In this document: positions 2,478 through 20,202 of the stretch, in pieces | How positions within the stretch are numbered: the stretch's first letter is position 1 | Layout: each line of letters starts with the position of its first letter | NCBI GenBank assembly: GCA_002840505.1 | Contig: PHBC01000003.1 | Location: 323,789-387,788, forward strand | DNA length: 64,000 bases | Reading direction: 5' to 3' | Source: Deltaproteobacteria bacterium HGW-Deltaproteobacteria-2 | GTDB lineage: Bacteria > Desulfobacterota > Syntrophia > Syntrophales > Smithellaceae | The notes under the pieces: generated by a model | What the model was told of the DNA's origin: nothing | Seen by the model: only the letters and a program-made list of their open reading frames with translations | Database searches by the model: none | Translations under genes and position numbers: made by a program

Positions 2478-3143
2478 TCAAGGGCAATATCGCTTGCCTT
2501 TAGCCATTTCAAACAATTTGCAGTCGCCCAATGTACAAGCTTTTTGCACATCACGGCAGAAAAGATTTTTGTTGCCCAGCATAAAATAAGCACGCCCTCG
2601 GCTGGTGTAGGCCAAGGCATCATCAGGCTTCAGGTTGATGGCCTCGTTATAATCCACTATGGCACGCTTCAGCTTGCCAAGGTTATCGTAAGCAATTCCC
2701 CTGTTGTAATAGAGGTTGGCATCTTTCGGCTTCAGGCTGATGGCCTTATTGAAATCATCAATGGCCTGTTGATACTGATGGAGGCTATTGTGAGCATCTC
2801 CCTTATTGTTGTAGGCTTCGGCTAAATCCGGTTGCAGGCGTATGGCCTCGTTATAATCCACTATGGCACGCTGATACTGGCCGAGCTTAGCGAAAACAAT
2901 CCCCCGGTTGCTGTAAATCTCAGCTAATTCCGGTCGCAGGCGTATGGCCTCGTTATATTCTTCAATGGCCTGCTGATACTGGCCGCGGTTCGCGCAGGCA
3001 ATCCCATTGTTGCTGTGGGCAATGGCATCATCAGGTTTTTGTTTAACGGTATTATCAGCCTTCAGTTTATTAGCATTGTTCAAATCCGAGCAGGAACAGA
3101 GAAACATTAAAACAAGAAAGACGGCAACGATAATTTTGCGCAT
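2478..3143 (-). CDS. TPR-repeat lipoprotein
   Basis: 221 residues. The N-terminus MRKIIVAVFLVLMFLCSCS is a signal peptide with a lipobox-like LCSC, so lipid attachment at Cys18 is likely. Residues about 38-185 are consecutive 34-residue TPR units, seen in repeated phrases such as GQYQQAIEEYNEAIRLRPE and KLKRAIVDYNEAINLKPD. A short Cys-rich end follows (CRDVQKACTLGDCKLF). TPR proteins are scaffolds for protein contacts. A close paralogue with the same leader lies at 20921-21493, and the two share similarity in the DNA just past their stop codons. Confidence 0.8.
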   Translation of the reverse strand: MRKIIVAVFLVLMFLCSCSDLNNANKLKADNTVKQKPDDAIAHSNNGIACANRGQYQQAIEEYNEAIRLRPELAEIYSNRGIVFAKLGQYQRAIVDYNEAIRLQPDLAEAYNNKGDAHNSLHQYQQAIDDFNKAISLKPKDANLYYNRGIAYDNLGKLKRAIVDYNEAINLKPDDALAYTSRGRAYFMLGNKNLFCRDVQKACTLGDCKLFEMAKGKRYCP

Positions 3144-6794: not shown

Positions 6795-7060
6795 GCCCAC
6801 AGCCGTCATTCCGGCATGGGTCTAGCCGGAATCCATTTGTCTTTTAATACTGGATACCGGCCTTCGCCGGTATGACAGCACTTTACACAGGTCCGCCTCC
6901 TGTCATTTCCGCAATTCATTTATTGTAATTGCCATTGCGAGGCGCACCTTGTGCGCCGTGGCAATCTTTCATTCTGTTATTCCCGTCCCGCATACGCGGG
7001 ATCAACTCCGGCGGGAATCCAGAATTATATGTCATTAAGAGTCCCGTGATGTCGGACCCG
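6795..7060. repeat. Mosaic palindromic repeats between uup and the Nudix gene
   Basis: Four palindromic modules in series and no gene: 'gtcattccggc ... gccggaatcca' (6805-6836), 'ctggataccggcc ... ccggtatgaca' (6849-6876), 'cattgcgaggcgcacc ... gtggcaatc' (6932-6969) and 'cccgcatacgcggg ... cgggaatccag' (6982-7022). Any of them could fold as a hairpin in the transcripts that converge here. Confidence 0.75.
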
Positions 7061-7555: not shown

Positions 7556-7680
7556 GTGACACTCGCTAAGAGCGAGAGAAACAAAGATCGAATCTTTGTC
7601 ATTCCGGCGAAGGCCGGAATCCAGTTTTATTTTTTCCTGGATGCCGTTCTTCAACGGCATGACAGTCATAAAATCCCCCC
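7556..7680. repeat. Palindromic repeat modules
   Basis: Contains 'ctcgctaagagcgag' (7561-7575), 'cattccggcgaaggccggaa' (7600-7619) and 'ctggatgccgttc ... aacggcatgaca' (7637-7666). These are the same module families seen in other gaps. An ORF running rightward through here is built from repeat sequence and was left out. Confidence 0.65.
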
Positions 7681-7687
7681 GGAGGGA

Positions 7688-8032
7688 CTACTTGATAATT
7701 CCTACCAACACCTTGCTGTCCGCACCAAAATAAACATTCCTGCCGATCTTCACCAGGGGACGGCGGATAAAGCGCGGCTCTTTGAGCATGAGATCAATCA
7801 AATCATTATCAGAAAGTTTTGCCTGATCCAACCCCAGCGCCTTGAAACTTGGAGATTTGAAACTGAACATATCGGAGGCTGATTTTCCCTGTAACAACAT
7901 CTTGATTTCCTCGCGCGTGAAAGGTGTCTTGAAAAAATCACGCTCGTTGATTTCTACCTTCTTTTGCGAAAGAAACTCCTTCGCTTTCCGGCATGTGGTT
8001 CACTTATTCCAGCAGAAAAAGTCAACTGTCAT
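7688..8032 (-). CDS. ArsC/Spx-family protein, predicted selenoprotein (in-frame UGA)
   Basis: The reading frame from ATG 8032 to the stop at 7688 is 114 codons, the normal length of the ArsC/Spx/YffB family, with one in-frame TGA at codon 11 (8000-8002). It reads MTVDFFCWNK-[TGA]-TTCRKAKEFL. The TGA replaces the first Cys of the redox CxxC that family members carry at this spot, giving U-x-x-C-R. An AGGAG ribosome site precedes the ATG. The family features continue past the TGA, including the EPRFIRRPLV segment with the RP motif. A SECIS-type hairpin follows the TGA. I read this as Sec-containing arsenate-reductase-like oxidoreductase. A plain nonsense mutation is the alternative; the start at MLLQ (7900) would remove the active site. 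Confidence 0.8.
7966..8002 (-). promoter_or_regulatory. Candidate bacterial SECIS element with UGA
   Basis: On the minus strand, fifteen bases after the TGA (8002-8000), GCGAAGG (7984-7978) pairs with CTTTCGC (7972-7966), seven pairs including one G-U. They close a five-base loop AGTTT whose second base is G. Known bacterial SECIS elements sit within the coding sequence just after UGA and have a short stem with a G in the first two loop positions, about 16-37 bases from the UGA; here the G is 24 bases away. SelB would bind this hairpin. Confidence 0.65.
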
Positions 8033-8153
8033 AATCTTTTCTCCTAATAGGGCAAGATGAAACTATGTTGGAGCTTTGATCGAAGTGATACCCGCTAAAA
8101 GCAACCGGGTCATAGTGCTACCATGCAGTCTTTTTTTCACTATTCACGAGGAA

Positions 8154-15433: not shown

Positions 15434-17035
15434 TTGACTAGTCACAAGTACGGTCGAGGAAAATTTGAGGCTCACCCCAATTATATTGAATATATGAAAA
15501 TGATCGTATCTCATCATAACTATGCGGGGATGCCGAACGCTAAAGCTGCTGATGGAAGAATAAACTGGCAAGTAAGTTCAGGGAAGACGACCTCATTTTA
15601 CAAGGATTATCTTGCACGTAAAGCATGGTGGGTGCAAAAGGCTGATCAATTAAGATTGCCAGGGCGTAACGATGAAAACGACCGATTTACATTGGCAGCG
15701 AGAATTATTCACCCAACAGGTTATCGTGTATGTCGACTTTGCGGAGAAAGTTTCAATGTTGGTTATTTTTACATTAATCACACCTTTGCACATCGCCTGA
15801 ATAAAGATTTTCCAGCACTTGATATTACTAAAGGACAGTCAATTGATGATTTTCTTCTTCAATTAGAGAAAATAATGTCAGATGTTTCAATTATGGAATA
15901 TTTTTGCTCATTATTTCCAGAACGAAGGAAATTCTTCAAAAAATATGGAATGACTAAGGAGGCATTTGAAAAAAGCAGCTATATCCGATCATATATGCTT
16001 TCTCCGGGATTTATGGGGAATCCCCCAGATCGCCTAGATGGATTTCATGATTATCACAACACTTGTCGGAAAAAGAATGATCCAGGACGATTTGATGATA
16101 ACATGCGCGGATATAATCACGATCGTCGCAGTTTTGAATGGTGGGCTGAAGGAAATTGGGCATTGGCTGATGCTTTATATAACAAAGCTGGTCTAGGCAC
16201 ATGTTCCTTCCCAGGTTGTGGAAAGATACTTGAAAAAGTAAGTCCTGATCACGTTGGGCCCCTGGCATGTGGTTTCAAACAGCTTCCCTTATTCGTGCCC
16301 ACTTGCCAAAACCATAATTCCGCTAAGAATCGGCGATTTAGTATACGCGATGTTTATAAATTGCTTGAGTACGAAAATTTGACGCAACAGAGCGTAGCTT
16401 CCTGGCAAGTAAGAGCACATTGGGATTGTTACAAGACTATTGTCTCCGACGACAATCAAACCAAGGCATTGAGCAATTCTCTTCGTTCACTGCAAGACAT
16501 GTATTTGAGGACTCTTTGGGAAGTACGTAAGACCGGGCAAGTGCGTTTTTTGATTACTTTATTGAAGCCAGAATATGCCCTAGAAGAATTTGAGTTCACC
16601 GCACTTGATCCGGGAAATCTGACCTTTGCTAACGTTAAAACACAAAAAAAAATAACCAAGCTACGCAAAAGCTTGGCAGCAAGAATAGTCAGAATTGCAT
16701 TCGAAGCATTAGCTGAATATGCATCGAAACCTATTGAGCGCCGTAATATGGTTCGATCAGACTTTCAAGAGAATGAAAGAATAATCCGAGAAGCAGTCAA
16801 GCAGATTGCCGGTAATACTTGCCATGAAGATCAAGCTTGGCGAAATGCAATGCGTGAGTCTTTAACTCCAGAACAAAAAGAGAAAAATATCGCATTGCTC
16901 TTAGTTTCTCACAAGGTGCCCCAAAATGAAAAAGACATAACAGCAAAACAAATATTACAAACCGTTTTTGATACAATTGGAAAATCGGCCGCAGTTGATT
17001 TCAGTAGATATGAATTAATTCCAGATGAAATTTAG
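15434..17035 (+). CDS. Type IIS HNH restriction endonuclease, Alw26I/Eco31I/Esp3I-like
   Basis: 533 residues if started at the TTG at 15434, seven bases after GAGGGA; the next in-frame ATG (15494) would drop 20 residues. A zinc-bound HNH nuclease core lies near residues 258-300: CSFPGCGKILEKVSPDHVGP, then TCQNHNSAKNRRF. An earlier Cys pair and His (CRLCGE ... INHTFAH) may hold another zinc. Core spacing and length suit the Alw26I/Eco31I/Esp3I family, which cut outside GTCTC-type sites. The adjacent double methyltransferase supports this, because asymmetric GTCTC sites need adenine methylation on one strand and cytosine methylation on the other. Exact specificity is not readable. Confidence 0.75.
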   Translation: MTSHKYGRGKFEAHPNYIEYMKMIVSHHNYAGMPNAKAADGRINWQVSSGKTTSFYKDYLARKAWWVQKADQLRLPGRNDENDRFTLAARIIHPTGYRVCRLCGESFNVGYFYINHTFAHRLNKDFPALDITKGQSIDDFLLQLEKIMSDVSIMEYFCSLFPERRKFFKKYGMTKEAFEKSSYIRSYMLSPGFMGNPPDRLDGFHDYHNTCRKKNDPGRFDDNMRGYNHDRRSFEWWAEGNWALADALYNKAGLGTCSFPGCGKILEKVSPDHVGPLACGFKQLPLFVPTCQNHNSAKNRRFSIRDVYKLLEYENLTQQSVASWQVRAHWDCYKTIVSDDNQTKALSNSLRSLQDMYLRTLWEVRKTGQVRFLITLLKPEYALEEFEFTALDPGNLTFANVKTQKKITKLRKSLAARIVRIAFEALAEYASKPIERRNMVRSDFQENERIIREAVKQIAGNTCHEDQAWRNAMRESLTPEQKEKNIALLLVSHKVPQNEKDITAKQILQTVFDTIGKSAAVDFSRYELIPDEI

Positions 17036-20000
17036 AACTCATAGCCTGAAAGCCATCGAAGCAATTCATTACTAGATTTTACGGGCAAACTGAGCCCTGA
17101 TAGGGCATCTGAAACAGTGTGCGGCGGACGGAGGACTGAATCAAAAAGGTCAGGATCAATTCGGGCTTCTCTCCTCCCATTACATTTTTTATATACTGGC
17201 TCAGGTGGTCTCAAATCAATTAAGGAATCTGTTGTCGCAACAACAAAGACCCGCCTCCGCATTTGTGGAGTACCATATTGCTCCGCACATAATATCCACA
17301 CTGGTTCAAATACTCGATACCCAATATCTTTAAGCGACCGGCATATATCTTTAAGAACCTGTCCCTTGTTGAATGTAACAAGTCCCTCAACATTTTCCAG
17401 TAAAAAAATACGAGGGCGTAGCATTTCTGCAAAGTGCAAATAAATAGAGGCTAGGTCGTTTCGTTTATCGTCAATTAAGCGAAAACCAGCGTGAGAAAAT
17501 CCCTGACATGGTGGGCCACCAACCAACATGTCAAGACTCCGCCCATTGAGAGATATAATCAATTGTTCTATGATATTTTCAAATGCTTTTAGATCATGAA
17601 GATCTCGTCTAAAAACAGAAGTATAACCAGCCCGATAAGCCTTCGGTTCTAAATCACAAGGCCGATTGAAACAATAAGTGTCTAAAGCTTCTTTATTATT
17701 GTCAATTGCGCCGATGATTTCCCATCCAGCATTTTCTAAGCCTAAACTCAAGCCACCTGCGCCGCAAAATACATCAACTAAGCAACGCGATTGAGCATAC
17801 TGAATGAACTTTTTACCTATCGCTAATGCCAGTAATGGTGGCACAGCATTGCCAATTTGGTTGTGGATAGCCCCTTCGCTGCCTAGGAAAATGTATTTAT
17901 CTGGGAAGCTTTGCAGGCGGGCCGCTTCACGACTAGTGAGAGTGCGATCAATCACTGGATGGATGTGTGTTCCATTTCCGGGCCGATTATAGTATGTATT
18001 AATCGTATAAGCGGGTTGGTCTCGCCTCAAGCGTCCGTAATAAGTCGTTCGTACGACACCTCTTTCAGCCGTCATTTCACGAATTTGCTTCAAACGCTTT
18101 GATGGCACACTATCGGGTATGTTTTGCCAATTACCGCCCTCTGGCACGTAGGAAATTATCAAACGGTCTAACTCGGAAAGTGATGGCTCCAAGTGGTTAA
18201 AGAATAAATTGCTGATTCCAGAAGTCAAGAAACGTACCCCTCGCTTCATATGAACTGCAAAATTAACAGATCTCATTACATTGCAACTGCCAATTTGAGA
18301 CAGAATTGCGCGAAGCTCGGTTTCGGGGTTAAGACCATATGACAGTCCAACAGCCGCTTCAAGGAGATCAACAAGCCAGTCTGTGTTGACTTGGCCTTCA
18401 TTTTTAGCAAATTGTTCTAATTGATAAGCACAAGAAATAATGACAGGGAACCATTCTTCTAACTCTGGGAATGGTAAATTATCTATCTCGTAATTACCAA
18501 CATGATTGTTACTGTTCTCAATCCTGAAATACCAATCGAGCACCGCGCTATTTAACAATCCTAAAAGGATATATAGCCTTTCCGCTGACTCAATTTCATT
18601 TTCTGATGCAACAGAGATAAAATTGCATGAGTTTCCAACCGCATGTTTTGCTGGTATTTGACAAAATAATAGACGCCTGGACTGCTGTGCATATGAGCAT
18701 TGACGACCAACTATTCTTGGGACATCATAATATTGATGTTTCGGTTTATTGGTAATGAATTCTATAAAACCATGCGGATCAAGATAAGACGGTTTTTCCA
18801 ATGAGGATGAGTGTTTAAATGCAAAACGTTCAACATGTTCCCCTCTAACCAATCGAATTTTGGTCTTATTAGCTAAAAAAAGTGGTTTAGCGACCGTTTG
18901 ATCCACCTCACCTCTTGCGTTAGTAACCCAAGAAACTCTACCCAATTTAGTTAGTTGAGATAGGCGTTCGAATAATTCAAGATCAAATCCAGAAACGCGA
19001 GGTATTGCAAAATCTGTTTGCGCCATCGACTTTAACCGTTCATAACTAATCATTCTAGGACTCTTGTTGGGTTCTGAAAGTTTATCAATTCTAAAAGCTT
19101 TTTTGTCGCTTTGATCAAGAAATGTTATCGAGGTTGCTTGGTTGACTGTAGAAAATTTCCCGCCATCTTCTTCAATTAGAATAATACGATCAATTAACCG
19201 TCTTTCTAGAAGAACCTTCCGCAGTGCTCGCCCCGCACTACCTGACATCCAAGAGTCAGGAGAAATAATTGCAATCATGGCACCATTAAATGCTAACTCT
19301 GCACAAGCTCTAAAAAAGAGTTTCGAATATTCTAGGATTCCGTGCTCATTAGCAATAAATGAATATTTCATGCGGAGATGCTTGACATAATCAGCAACGC
19401 TAGCCTGAAGATTGGAAACAGAAGTTGATAATTCAATATTTCCATTTTGTAAAGAGGTCTCAGTGTTAGTAGCACGATCTTTGGTTAGCCTTAGTCGGCC
19501 ATATGGCGGATTAATAATCACACTAGTCTCATTTGCAGTCAGCATAATTGTTTCGGTCAAAAGATAGCTTAAACCATCACCTACAACAACAGCAATCTTT
19601 CCGTTATAACCGGATAGTTCTGCAACACGCTTTATCACAATTTTAGCCCATTCCGCTAATTGCTTATCTAATTCAACGCCAATTAATTGTTCATAATTAT
19701 ATTCATTAGAGAAAATCAACGAGGCGCACAGTAAGACACCACTCCCCAAGCAGGGATCTAAGAGAGTAGATATTTTTTCTTTTCTTGAGAGTCCTTTAAC
19801 CATGACTTCCGCAATGTGCGGAGGGGTGAAGAATATACCGTAATGTTTGGCAACTGAGAGATTCTTTATCGGACGACATGGGGCAATTGGATCGTATATC
19901 TGATAGAAAGTTTGCTCAATTACTTTTGAGGCCAGAAATGTAACGATATAAGGATCTTCTTCCAGTAGCACATGCTCAGTCAAGACGGTTGTCGTCACTA

Positions 20001-20202
20001 GATCATTAAAAACTAGAGCAGCGCGACCACTTGGTAGTGGTAGCTTATCATGATATAGATCAAAGTGTGAATAATCATCCAATTTTGCGTGAGAACTATT
20101 CCATCCCACAACAATACGCTCGGAGGTTTCTTTGCGAAGTTGCTGGGCTCGCTTCTCAAACCAAGTAATACTAGGAATTTTCTCAAGAATGTTGAAAGTC
20201 AT
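17032..20202 (-). CDS. Fused m6A and circularly permuted m5C DNA methyltransferase
   Basis: 1056 residues, two enzymes in one chain. Residues 1 to about 640 are an N6-adenine methyltransferase: motif I LLDPCLGSGVLL (147-158), catalytic NPPYGR (231-236), then a TaqI-like recognition domain. Residues about 690-1056 are a C5-cytosine methyltransferase with motifs out of usual order: recognition region, motif IX REAARLQSFPD, motif X QIGNAVPP, then motif I DVFCGAGGLSLGL, catalytic PPCQGFS, ENV and QYGTPQMRRRVFVV. This is the circular permutation known from M.BssHII. It converges on the endonuclease gene with a 4-base overlap of the two stops. Together the domains would protect both strands of an asymmetric site. 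Confidence 0.9.
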   Translation of the reverse strand: MTFNILEKIPSITWFEKRAQQLRKETSERIVVGWNSSHAKLDDYSHFDLYHDKLPLPSGRAALVFNDLVTTTVLTEHVLLEEDPYIVTFLASKVIEQTFYQIYDPIAPCRPIKNLSVAKHYGIFFTPPHIAEVMVKGLSRKEKISTLLDPCLGSGVLLCASLIFSNEYNYEQLIGVELDKQLAEWAKIVIKRVAELSGYNGKIAVVVGDGLSYLLTETIMLTANETSVIINPPYGRLRLTKDRATNTETSLQNGNIELSTSVSNLQASVADYVKHLRMKYSFIANEHGILEYSKLFFRACAELAFNGAMIAIISPDSWMSGSAGRALRKVLLERRLIDRIILIEEDGGKFSTVNQATSITFLDQSDKKAFRIDKLSEPNKSPRMISYERLKSMAQTDFAIPRVSGFDLELFERLSQLTKLGRVSWVTNARGEVDQTVAKPLFLANKTKIRLVRGEHVERFAFKHSSSLEKPSYLDPHGFIEFITNKPKHQYYDVPRIVGRQCSYAQQSRRLLFCQIPAKHAVGNSCNFISVASENEIESAERLYILLGLLNSAVLDWYFRIENSNNHVGNYEIDNLPFPELEEWFPVIISCAYQLEQFAKNEGQVNTDWLVDLLEAAVGLSYGLNPETELRAILSQIGSCNVMRSVNFAVHMKRGVRFLTSGISNLFFNHLEPSLSELDRLIISYVPEGGNWQNIPDSVPSKRLKQIREMTAERGVVRTTYYGRLRRDQPAYTINTYYNRPGNGTHIHPVIDRTLTSREAARLQSFPDKYIFLGSEGAIHNQIGNAVPPLLALAIGKKFIQYAQSRCLVDVFCGAGGLSLGLENAGWEIIGAIDNNKEALDTYCFNRPCDLEPKAYRAGYTSVFRRDLHDLKAFENIIEQLIISLNGRSLDMLVGGPPCQGFSHAGFRLIDDKRNDLASIYLHFAEMLRPRIFLLENVEGLVTFNKGQVLKDICRSLKDIGYRVFEPVWILCAEQYGTPQMRRRVFVVATTDSLIDLRPPEPVYKKCNGRREARIDPDLFDSVLRPPHTVSDALSGLSLPVKSSNELLRWLSGYEF

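Follow-up and report, generated by a model that had tools for sequence, protein, structure and literature searches.

INTRODUCTION

ArsC-type proteins containing selenocysteine (Sec), including some with a UxxC motif, were reported between 2005 and 2008. Among them are a Sec arsenate reductase (COG1393) with a UxxS motif from the Sargasso Sea (PMC1088965), the Sec ArsC-like genes of Desulfotalea psychrophila and Desulfuromonas acetoxidans, described in 2006 (PMC1794560), and "Arsenate reductase 2" (cd03032), a UxxC protein represented by 42 marine sequences in the Global Ocean Sampling (GOS) selenoproteome (PMC2398784). NCBIfam also contains a model for an "ArsC family (seleno)protein" with a UxxC motif (NF041106, ArsC_rel_Se_1; PMC13188914). 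Our literature search found no paper naming Smithella together with selenocysteine.

Here, we analyzed a 64,000-nucleotide stretch of contig PHBC01000003.1 from Deltaproteobacteria bacterium HGW-Deltaproteobacteria-2 (Smithellaceae), referred to below as the window, in which an ArsC/Spx-family gene with an in-frame UGA codon had been predicted to encode a selenoprotein. The gene is present in a single copy in its own genome (3.28 Mb, 11 contigs). The original prediction presented it as a chromosomal example of a Sec ArsC-like protein; it would be one, but not the first, given the two species reported in 2006.

Compared with the described systems, the window protein agrees with GOS "Arsenate reductase 2" in being of the ArsC/Spx type with Sec first in UxxC, an agreement limited to the motif and an Spx-like affinity. 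The GOS sequences are marine, whereas the clade studied here comes from Smithellaceae, Syntrophaceae, and Chloroflexota; the two may represent the same family. It shares an ArsC-related fold, UxxC, and, for some members, Sec with the proteins of NF041106, but it scores only 36.9 bits with that model, which has a cut-off of 85. Seven other members of the clade score at most 31.9 bits or are absent from the matches, so that, judged by this model, the clade is outside the NF041106 subfamily. The Sargasso Sea protein likewise has Sec at the position of the catalytic Cys, but its motif is the UxxS expected of a true ArsC.

RESULTS AND DISCUSSION

A 114-codon frame contains a single UGA codon

Translation of the gene reads MTVDFFCWNK-UGA-TTCRKAKEFLSQKKVEINERDFFKTPFTREEIKMLLQGKSASDMFSFKSPSFKALGLDQAKLSDNDLIDLMLKEPRFIRRPLVKIGRNVYFGADSKVLVGIIK-TAG, with the residues after UGA beginning TTCRKAKEF and ending GIIK (Table 1). 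As originally described, the frame has 114 codons and one internal stop, a TGA at codon 11, at the position of the first Cys of the family's CxxC motif; the strand, absent from that description, is minus. Standard gene calling was also said to report 70 residues and to miss the active site, and the open reading frame listing indeed contains just this C-terminal part.

Table 1 Features of the predicted selenoprotein gene (positions in the window)
Feature	Position	Strand	Comment
Predicted selenoprotein gene	7688..8032	-	114 codons plus TAG stop; UGA codon 11 predicted to be read as Sec
In-frame UGA (Sec) codon, codon 11	8000..8002	-	Occupies the column of the catalytic Cys in E. coli ArsC (Cys12) and of the first Cys in Spx CxxC
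Codon 14 (TGC), putative resolving Cys of UxxC	7991..7993	-	Invariant in the 29 aligned sequences
SECIS-like hairpin	7966..7984	-	Arms 7984-7978 and 7972-7966; loop AGUUU 7977-7973, second base G; covaries in orthologues
Shine-Dalgarno-like AGGAG	8041..8045	-	8 nt upstream of ATG (8032)
70-aa ORF of standard calling (table 11)	7688..7900	-	C-terminal part, without the active site

The protein has an ArsC/Spx fold but lacks landmarks of both ArsC and Spx

The window protein matched PF03960 (ArsC) with 58.2 bits (gathering cut-off, 24) and TIGR01617 (arsC_related) with 79.6 bits (cut-off, 75.05); two orthologues fell slightly under the latter cut-off, with 72.7 (L031) and 68.2 (L037) bits. An AlphaFold2 model built from the orthologue alignment had a pLDDT of 93.4, and the best Foldseek matches to it were Spx, YffB, and ArsC, many with a TM-score of at least 0.8 and several between 0.83 and 0.87. 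In the orthologue alignment, U11, C14, R31, S60-P61-S62, E85-P86-R87, and R90-R91-P92 are invariant, and C7 is nearly so, although it is absent from the more distant f79 group described below.

The fold, the position of the catalytic Cys, and one of three arginines are common to the window protein and E. coli ArsC (NP_417960.1), which has CxxS where the window protein has UxxC. The catalytic arginines of ArsC we take to be Arg60, Arg94, and Arg107. Only Arg94 is kept, as Arg91; Arg60 is replaced by Ser57 and Arg107 by Ala104. An ordinary arsenate reductase in which Sec replaces Cys12 would be consistent with the fold, the PF03960 match, the invariance of Arg91, and the occurrence of Sec ArsC proteins (UxxS) in marine metagenomes (PMC1088965), but it is at odds with the two lost arginines and with a TIGR00014 (arsC) score of 46.6 bits, where the cut-off is 106. 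In addition, ars genes are absent beside the gene in the window, and none were recognized among the related loci listed. On the arginine triad and the model scores, we rejected arsenate reduction as the main reading and consider it improbable.

By sequence, the nearest solved structures are those of Spx (B. subtilis; PDB 1z3e, 3gfk, and 7f75; E value of 2e-19), which has the same fold and its CxxC at the same position, with Cys where the window protein would have Sec. This proximity, together with the name "Spx/MgsR family" carried by TIGR01617, could point to a regulator that binds RNA polymerase and uses UxxC as a redox switch. However, the window protein has a gap of two residues opposite Asp51-Gly52 of Spx, it ends about 15 residues earlier so that the C-terminal tail is absent, and the dedicated Spx models were missed (62.1 bits against a cut-off of 123 and 48.9 against 152). 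Gly52 is presumably a contact of Spx with the alpha-CTD. With this residue and the tail missing, we rejected an Spx function, to which we give little credence. Thus, the ArsC/Spx family assignment of the original prediction holds for the fold, through arsC_related, and probably fails for function as an arsenate reductase or as Spx, on residues and model scores.

UGA is conserved at codon 11

A search of 60 relatives recovered an orthologue in 20 genomes (the window's own included), each with exactly one TGA. In 155 genomes of the class there were 35 matches, 34 of them full-length copies with one TGA, which occupies the same column in all translations. The 35th, in genome G133 (locus L073, G133:C68:9214-9477), has lost its N-terminus before about codon 20, has apparently decayed, and is uninformative on codon 11 either way. 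GTDB contigs provided 15 further loci, several of them from the same genomes, with TGA in all; five of the 15 are from Chloroflexota (L045, L046, L047, L051, and L052). Close relatives with neither Cys nor UGA at this codon had been named as evidence that would speak against a selenoprotein; the full-length close orthologues all have UGA. Searches of viral contigs returned one weak 35% fragment match only, and those of plasmids returned only classical arsC/Spx-type relatives with less than 60% identity.

Codon 11 is TGA in all 28 distinct, non-fragment orthologues, while their terminal stops are mixed (TAA in 12, TGA in 11, and TAG in 5). Were codon 11 a stop in decay, it would not be TGA throughout, so this pattern argues against one. 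If the locus were a pseudogene or a sequencing error, UGA would be a plain stop and the product a 70-aa remnant or nothing at all, as the single in-frame stop and the 70-aa gene call might suggest; the truncated G133 copy shows that decay does occur in the family. Against this, the UGA and the hairpin described below are kept across independent assemblies and two phyla, the residues preceding the UGA (F5, C7, and W8) are kept in the orthologues, and on either side of the UGA, codons have changed more at the third position than at the first and second. We therefore rejected this explanation on the grounds of conservation and regard it as hardly credible.

A broader draw from the phylum identified a more distant group, family f79, with the pattern FLWKST-[C or U]-[S/T]TCR. 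At the alignment column of codon 11, five genomes of this group encode Cys and two carry UGA. In the tree, f79 is the sister group of the main clade, and its two UGA sequences sit among the Cys ones. SelA is present in both UGA carriers and missing from two of the five genomes with Cys. This alternation amounts to the classical Cys/Sec pair test.

Two orthologues differ from this general picture in other respects. In a Dehalococcoidia orthologue (L051), codon 8, elsewhere Trp, is TAG (3022-3024) in addition to the UGA at codon 11; it is seen in one assembly only and may reflect sequencing error, decay, or recoding. Loci L037 and L075, whose two genomes (family f14) belong to the same order as that of the window, cluster with Dehalococcoidia L045 to L047 on a starred branch of the tree, which suggests transfer between phyla or a binning error.

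A SECIS-like hairpin follows the UGA codon

The sequence 3' of the UGA is ACCACATGCCGGAAA-GCGAAGG-AGTTT-CTTTCGC, in which a stem of 7 pairs starts 15 nt after the UGA and closes a 5-base loop whose second base is G, exactly as originally predicted. The UGA-to-loop distance is 22 nt, and a G lies within the first two loop bases, as in bacterial SECIS elements. Folding of the region downstream of the UGA with ViennaRNA gave -9.8 kcal/mol and one extra A-U pair inside the loop.

With the protein held fixed, all 7 pairs arose by chance in 0.7% of random synonymous recodings of the window sequence alone. Across 30 distinct orthologue sequences, 96% of the cells of the 7-pair helix are paired, compared to 53 ± 2.6% under the recoding null (2000 simulations; maximum, 62%), a null that ignores the relatedness of the sequences, so that the slide and covariation controls are the better guard. 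When the 3' arm was displaced, 32 to 72% of cells were paired, compared to 95.9% in place (28 sequences). Changes on both sides of a pair were found in 18 cells, where two pairs switch from G-C to A-U, one in 6 sequences and the other in 12. The covariation score was reached by 0 of 500 shuffles, a count that is not a probability given the relatedness of the sequences; the slide control is unaffected by this. The outermost pair is lost in 5 of the 28 SECIS rows, and in the divergent Chloroflexota locus L052 all seven pairs are kept with different letters (GCGGGAG-CGGCG-CTCTCGC).

The genome encodes the machinery for selenocysteine insertion

The original prediction had called for a search for selA, selB, selC, and selD, with a lack of selB and selC counting against it. 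All four are present in the genome: selA (522 bits), selB (377 bits; cut-off, 242), selD (383 bits; cut-off, 125), and a gene for tRNA-Sec (73.8 bits; cut-off, 47) that has a UCA anticodon, a G discriminator, and an encoded CCA. Since SelA occurs in 91 of 92 good genomes of the class, its co-occurrence with the gene there carries little weight. The selD gene (L054, G000:C5:258649-259578) itself has an in-frame TGA at the active site (SAG-UGA-ACK), making it a Sec-SelD. There is also a second tRNA-Sec-like gene (L003, G000:C1:453455-453545; 54.9 bits, cut-off 47) with a UCA anticodon, a U discriminator, and no encoded CCA. Copies of tRNA-Sec without G73 have been judged mostly nonfunctional (PMC5330540), and this one is probably a degenerate copy. 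Codon usage was also scanned across the window for other UGA readthrough genes, by a method blind to the present gene too; no candidate exceeded the threshold.

Reading of the UGA as an amino acid other than Sec, by suppression with Trp or Cys, is extremely unlikely: sequence alone cannot name the amino acid, but the use of TGA as terminal stop in 11 of the 28 orthologues means that UGA also terminates genes in these organisms, the orthologues specify Trp8 with a normal Trp codon, and the hairpin, the sel genes, and the Sec/Cys exchange point to Sec. Together with the conservation of UGA, these last three lines of evidence support the selenoprotein reading with which we began, and the comparisons made here strongly support a gene for a bacterial selenoprotein that has a UxxC redox motif and whose SECIS is conserved.

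A proposed role in thiol-disulfide exchange

As a whole, the locus is best explained, with high probability in our estimation, by a Sec-decoded UGA in a gene for a UxxC protein of the ArsC/Spx fold that acts as a thiol-disulfide oxidoreductase. The computed results are the reading frame, the conservation of the UGA and of the SECIS, the sel genes, and the predicted fold; from these, we infer Sec incorporation, the redox chemistry, and the kinds of substrate and donor as follows. SelB carrying Sec-tRNA(Sec), bound to the hairpin 15 to 34 nt after the UGA, would insert selenocysteine at codon 11, and the product would be a 114-residue protein of the ArsC/Spx (thioredoxin-like) fold with a U-x-x-C motif. 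The Sec selenolate would attack a disulfide or other oxidized substrate, Cys14 would resolve the intermediate via a U-C selenenylsulfide, and the latter would then be reduced by a thioredoxin- or glutaredoxin-type donor. A small thiol/selenol-disulfide oxidoreductase is the most likely assignment because membership in ArsC and Spx fails while U11, C14, and the other residues stay invariant.

Comparison of related loci found no conserved operon pointing to a substrate. In the window, the neighbors encode MltA, NUDIX, and DUF255 proteins, with no functional link, and the MltA and NUDIX neighbors recur in only a few relatives. The Dehalococcoidia loci L046 and L047 (2.4 to 5.3 kb) have a common order of membrane protein, seleno-ArsC-like gene, Staygreen-domain gene, and MsrA (L046) or MsrB (L047). 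The Staygreen-domain gene is found 3' of the seleno-ArsC-like gene in L045 and L046, and L047 has a similar sequence there. This arrangement in Dehalococcoidia is the sole functional hint from context, and a suggestive one only. A Sec-glutaredoxin has been reported to reduce Sec-MsrA in Clostridium (Kim et al. 2011, as cited in PMC13188914). A more specific proposal, which we consider possible but doubtful, is that the clade forms a distinct, nearly Cys-free, never described or modeled selenoprotein subfamily of Smithellaceae/Syntrophaceae-type bacteria, exchanged with Chloroflexota and dedicated to redox repair, for example, as an electron donor to methionine sulfoxide reductases.

If UGA is read as Sec, the gene represents an additional subfamily of selenoproteins, one whose members annotation pipelines would cut to an inactive C-terminal part. 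With UGA in all full-length copies found of the main clade and Sec or Cys in its sister group, the family offers a clean natural test of what a small UxxC protein with one domain gains from Sec. For hard-to-culture bacteria of syntrophic lineages, it also suggests a thiol chemistry based on selenium.

Other features of the window

A 1056-aa ORF at 17032-20202 (-) appears by eye to join an N6-adenine (NPPY) to a C5-cytosine (PPCQG) methyltransferase, and beside it lies a 533-aa ORF at 15434-17035 (+) with zinc-finger/HNH-like Cys motifs; together, they look like a restriction-modification or defense locus. An inverted repeat, ATTCCGGCGAAGGCCGGAAT, is located at 7601-7620, and similar short motifs near 6800-7030 indicate that it is possibly a dispersed intergenic repeat.
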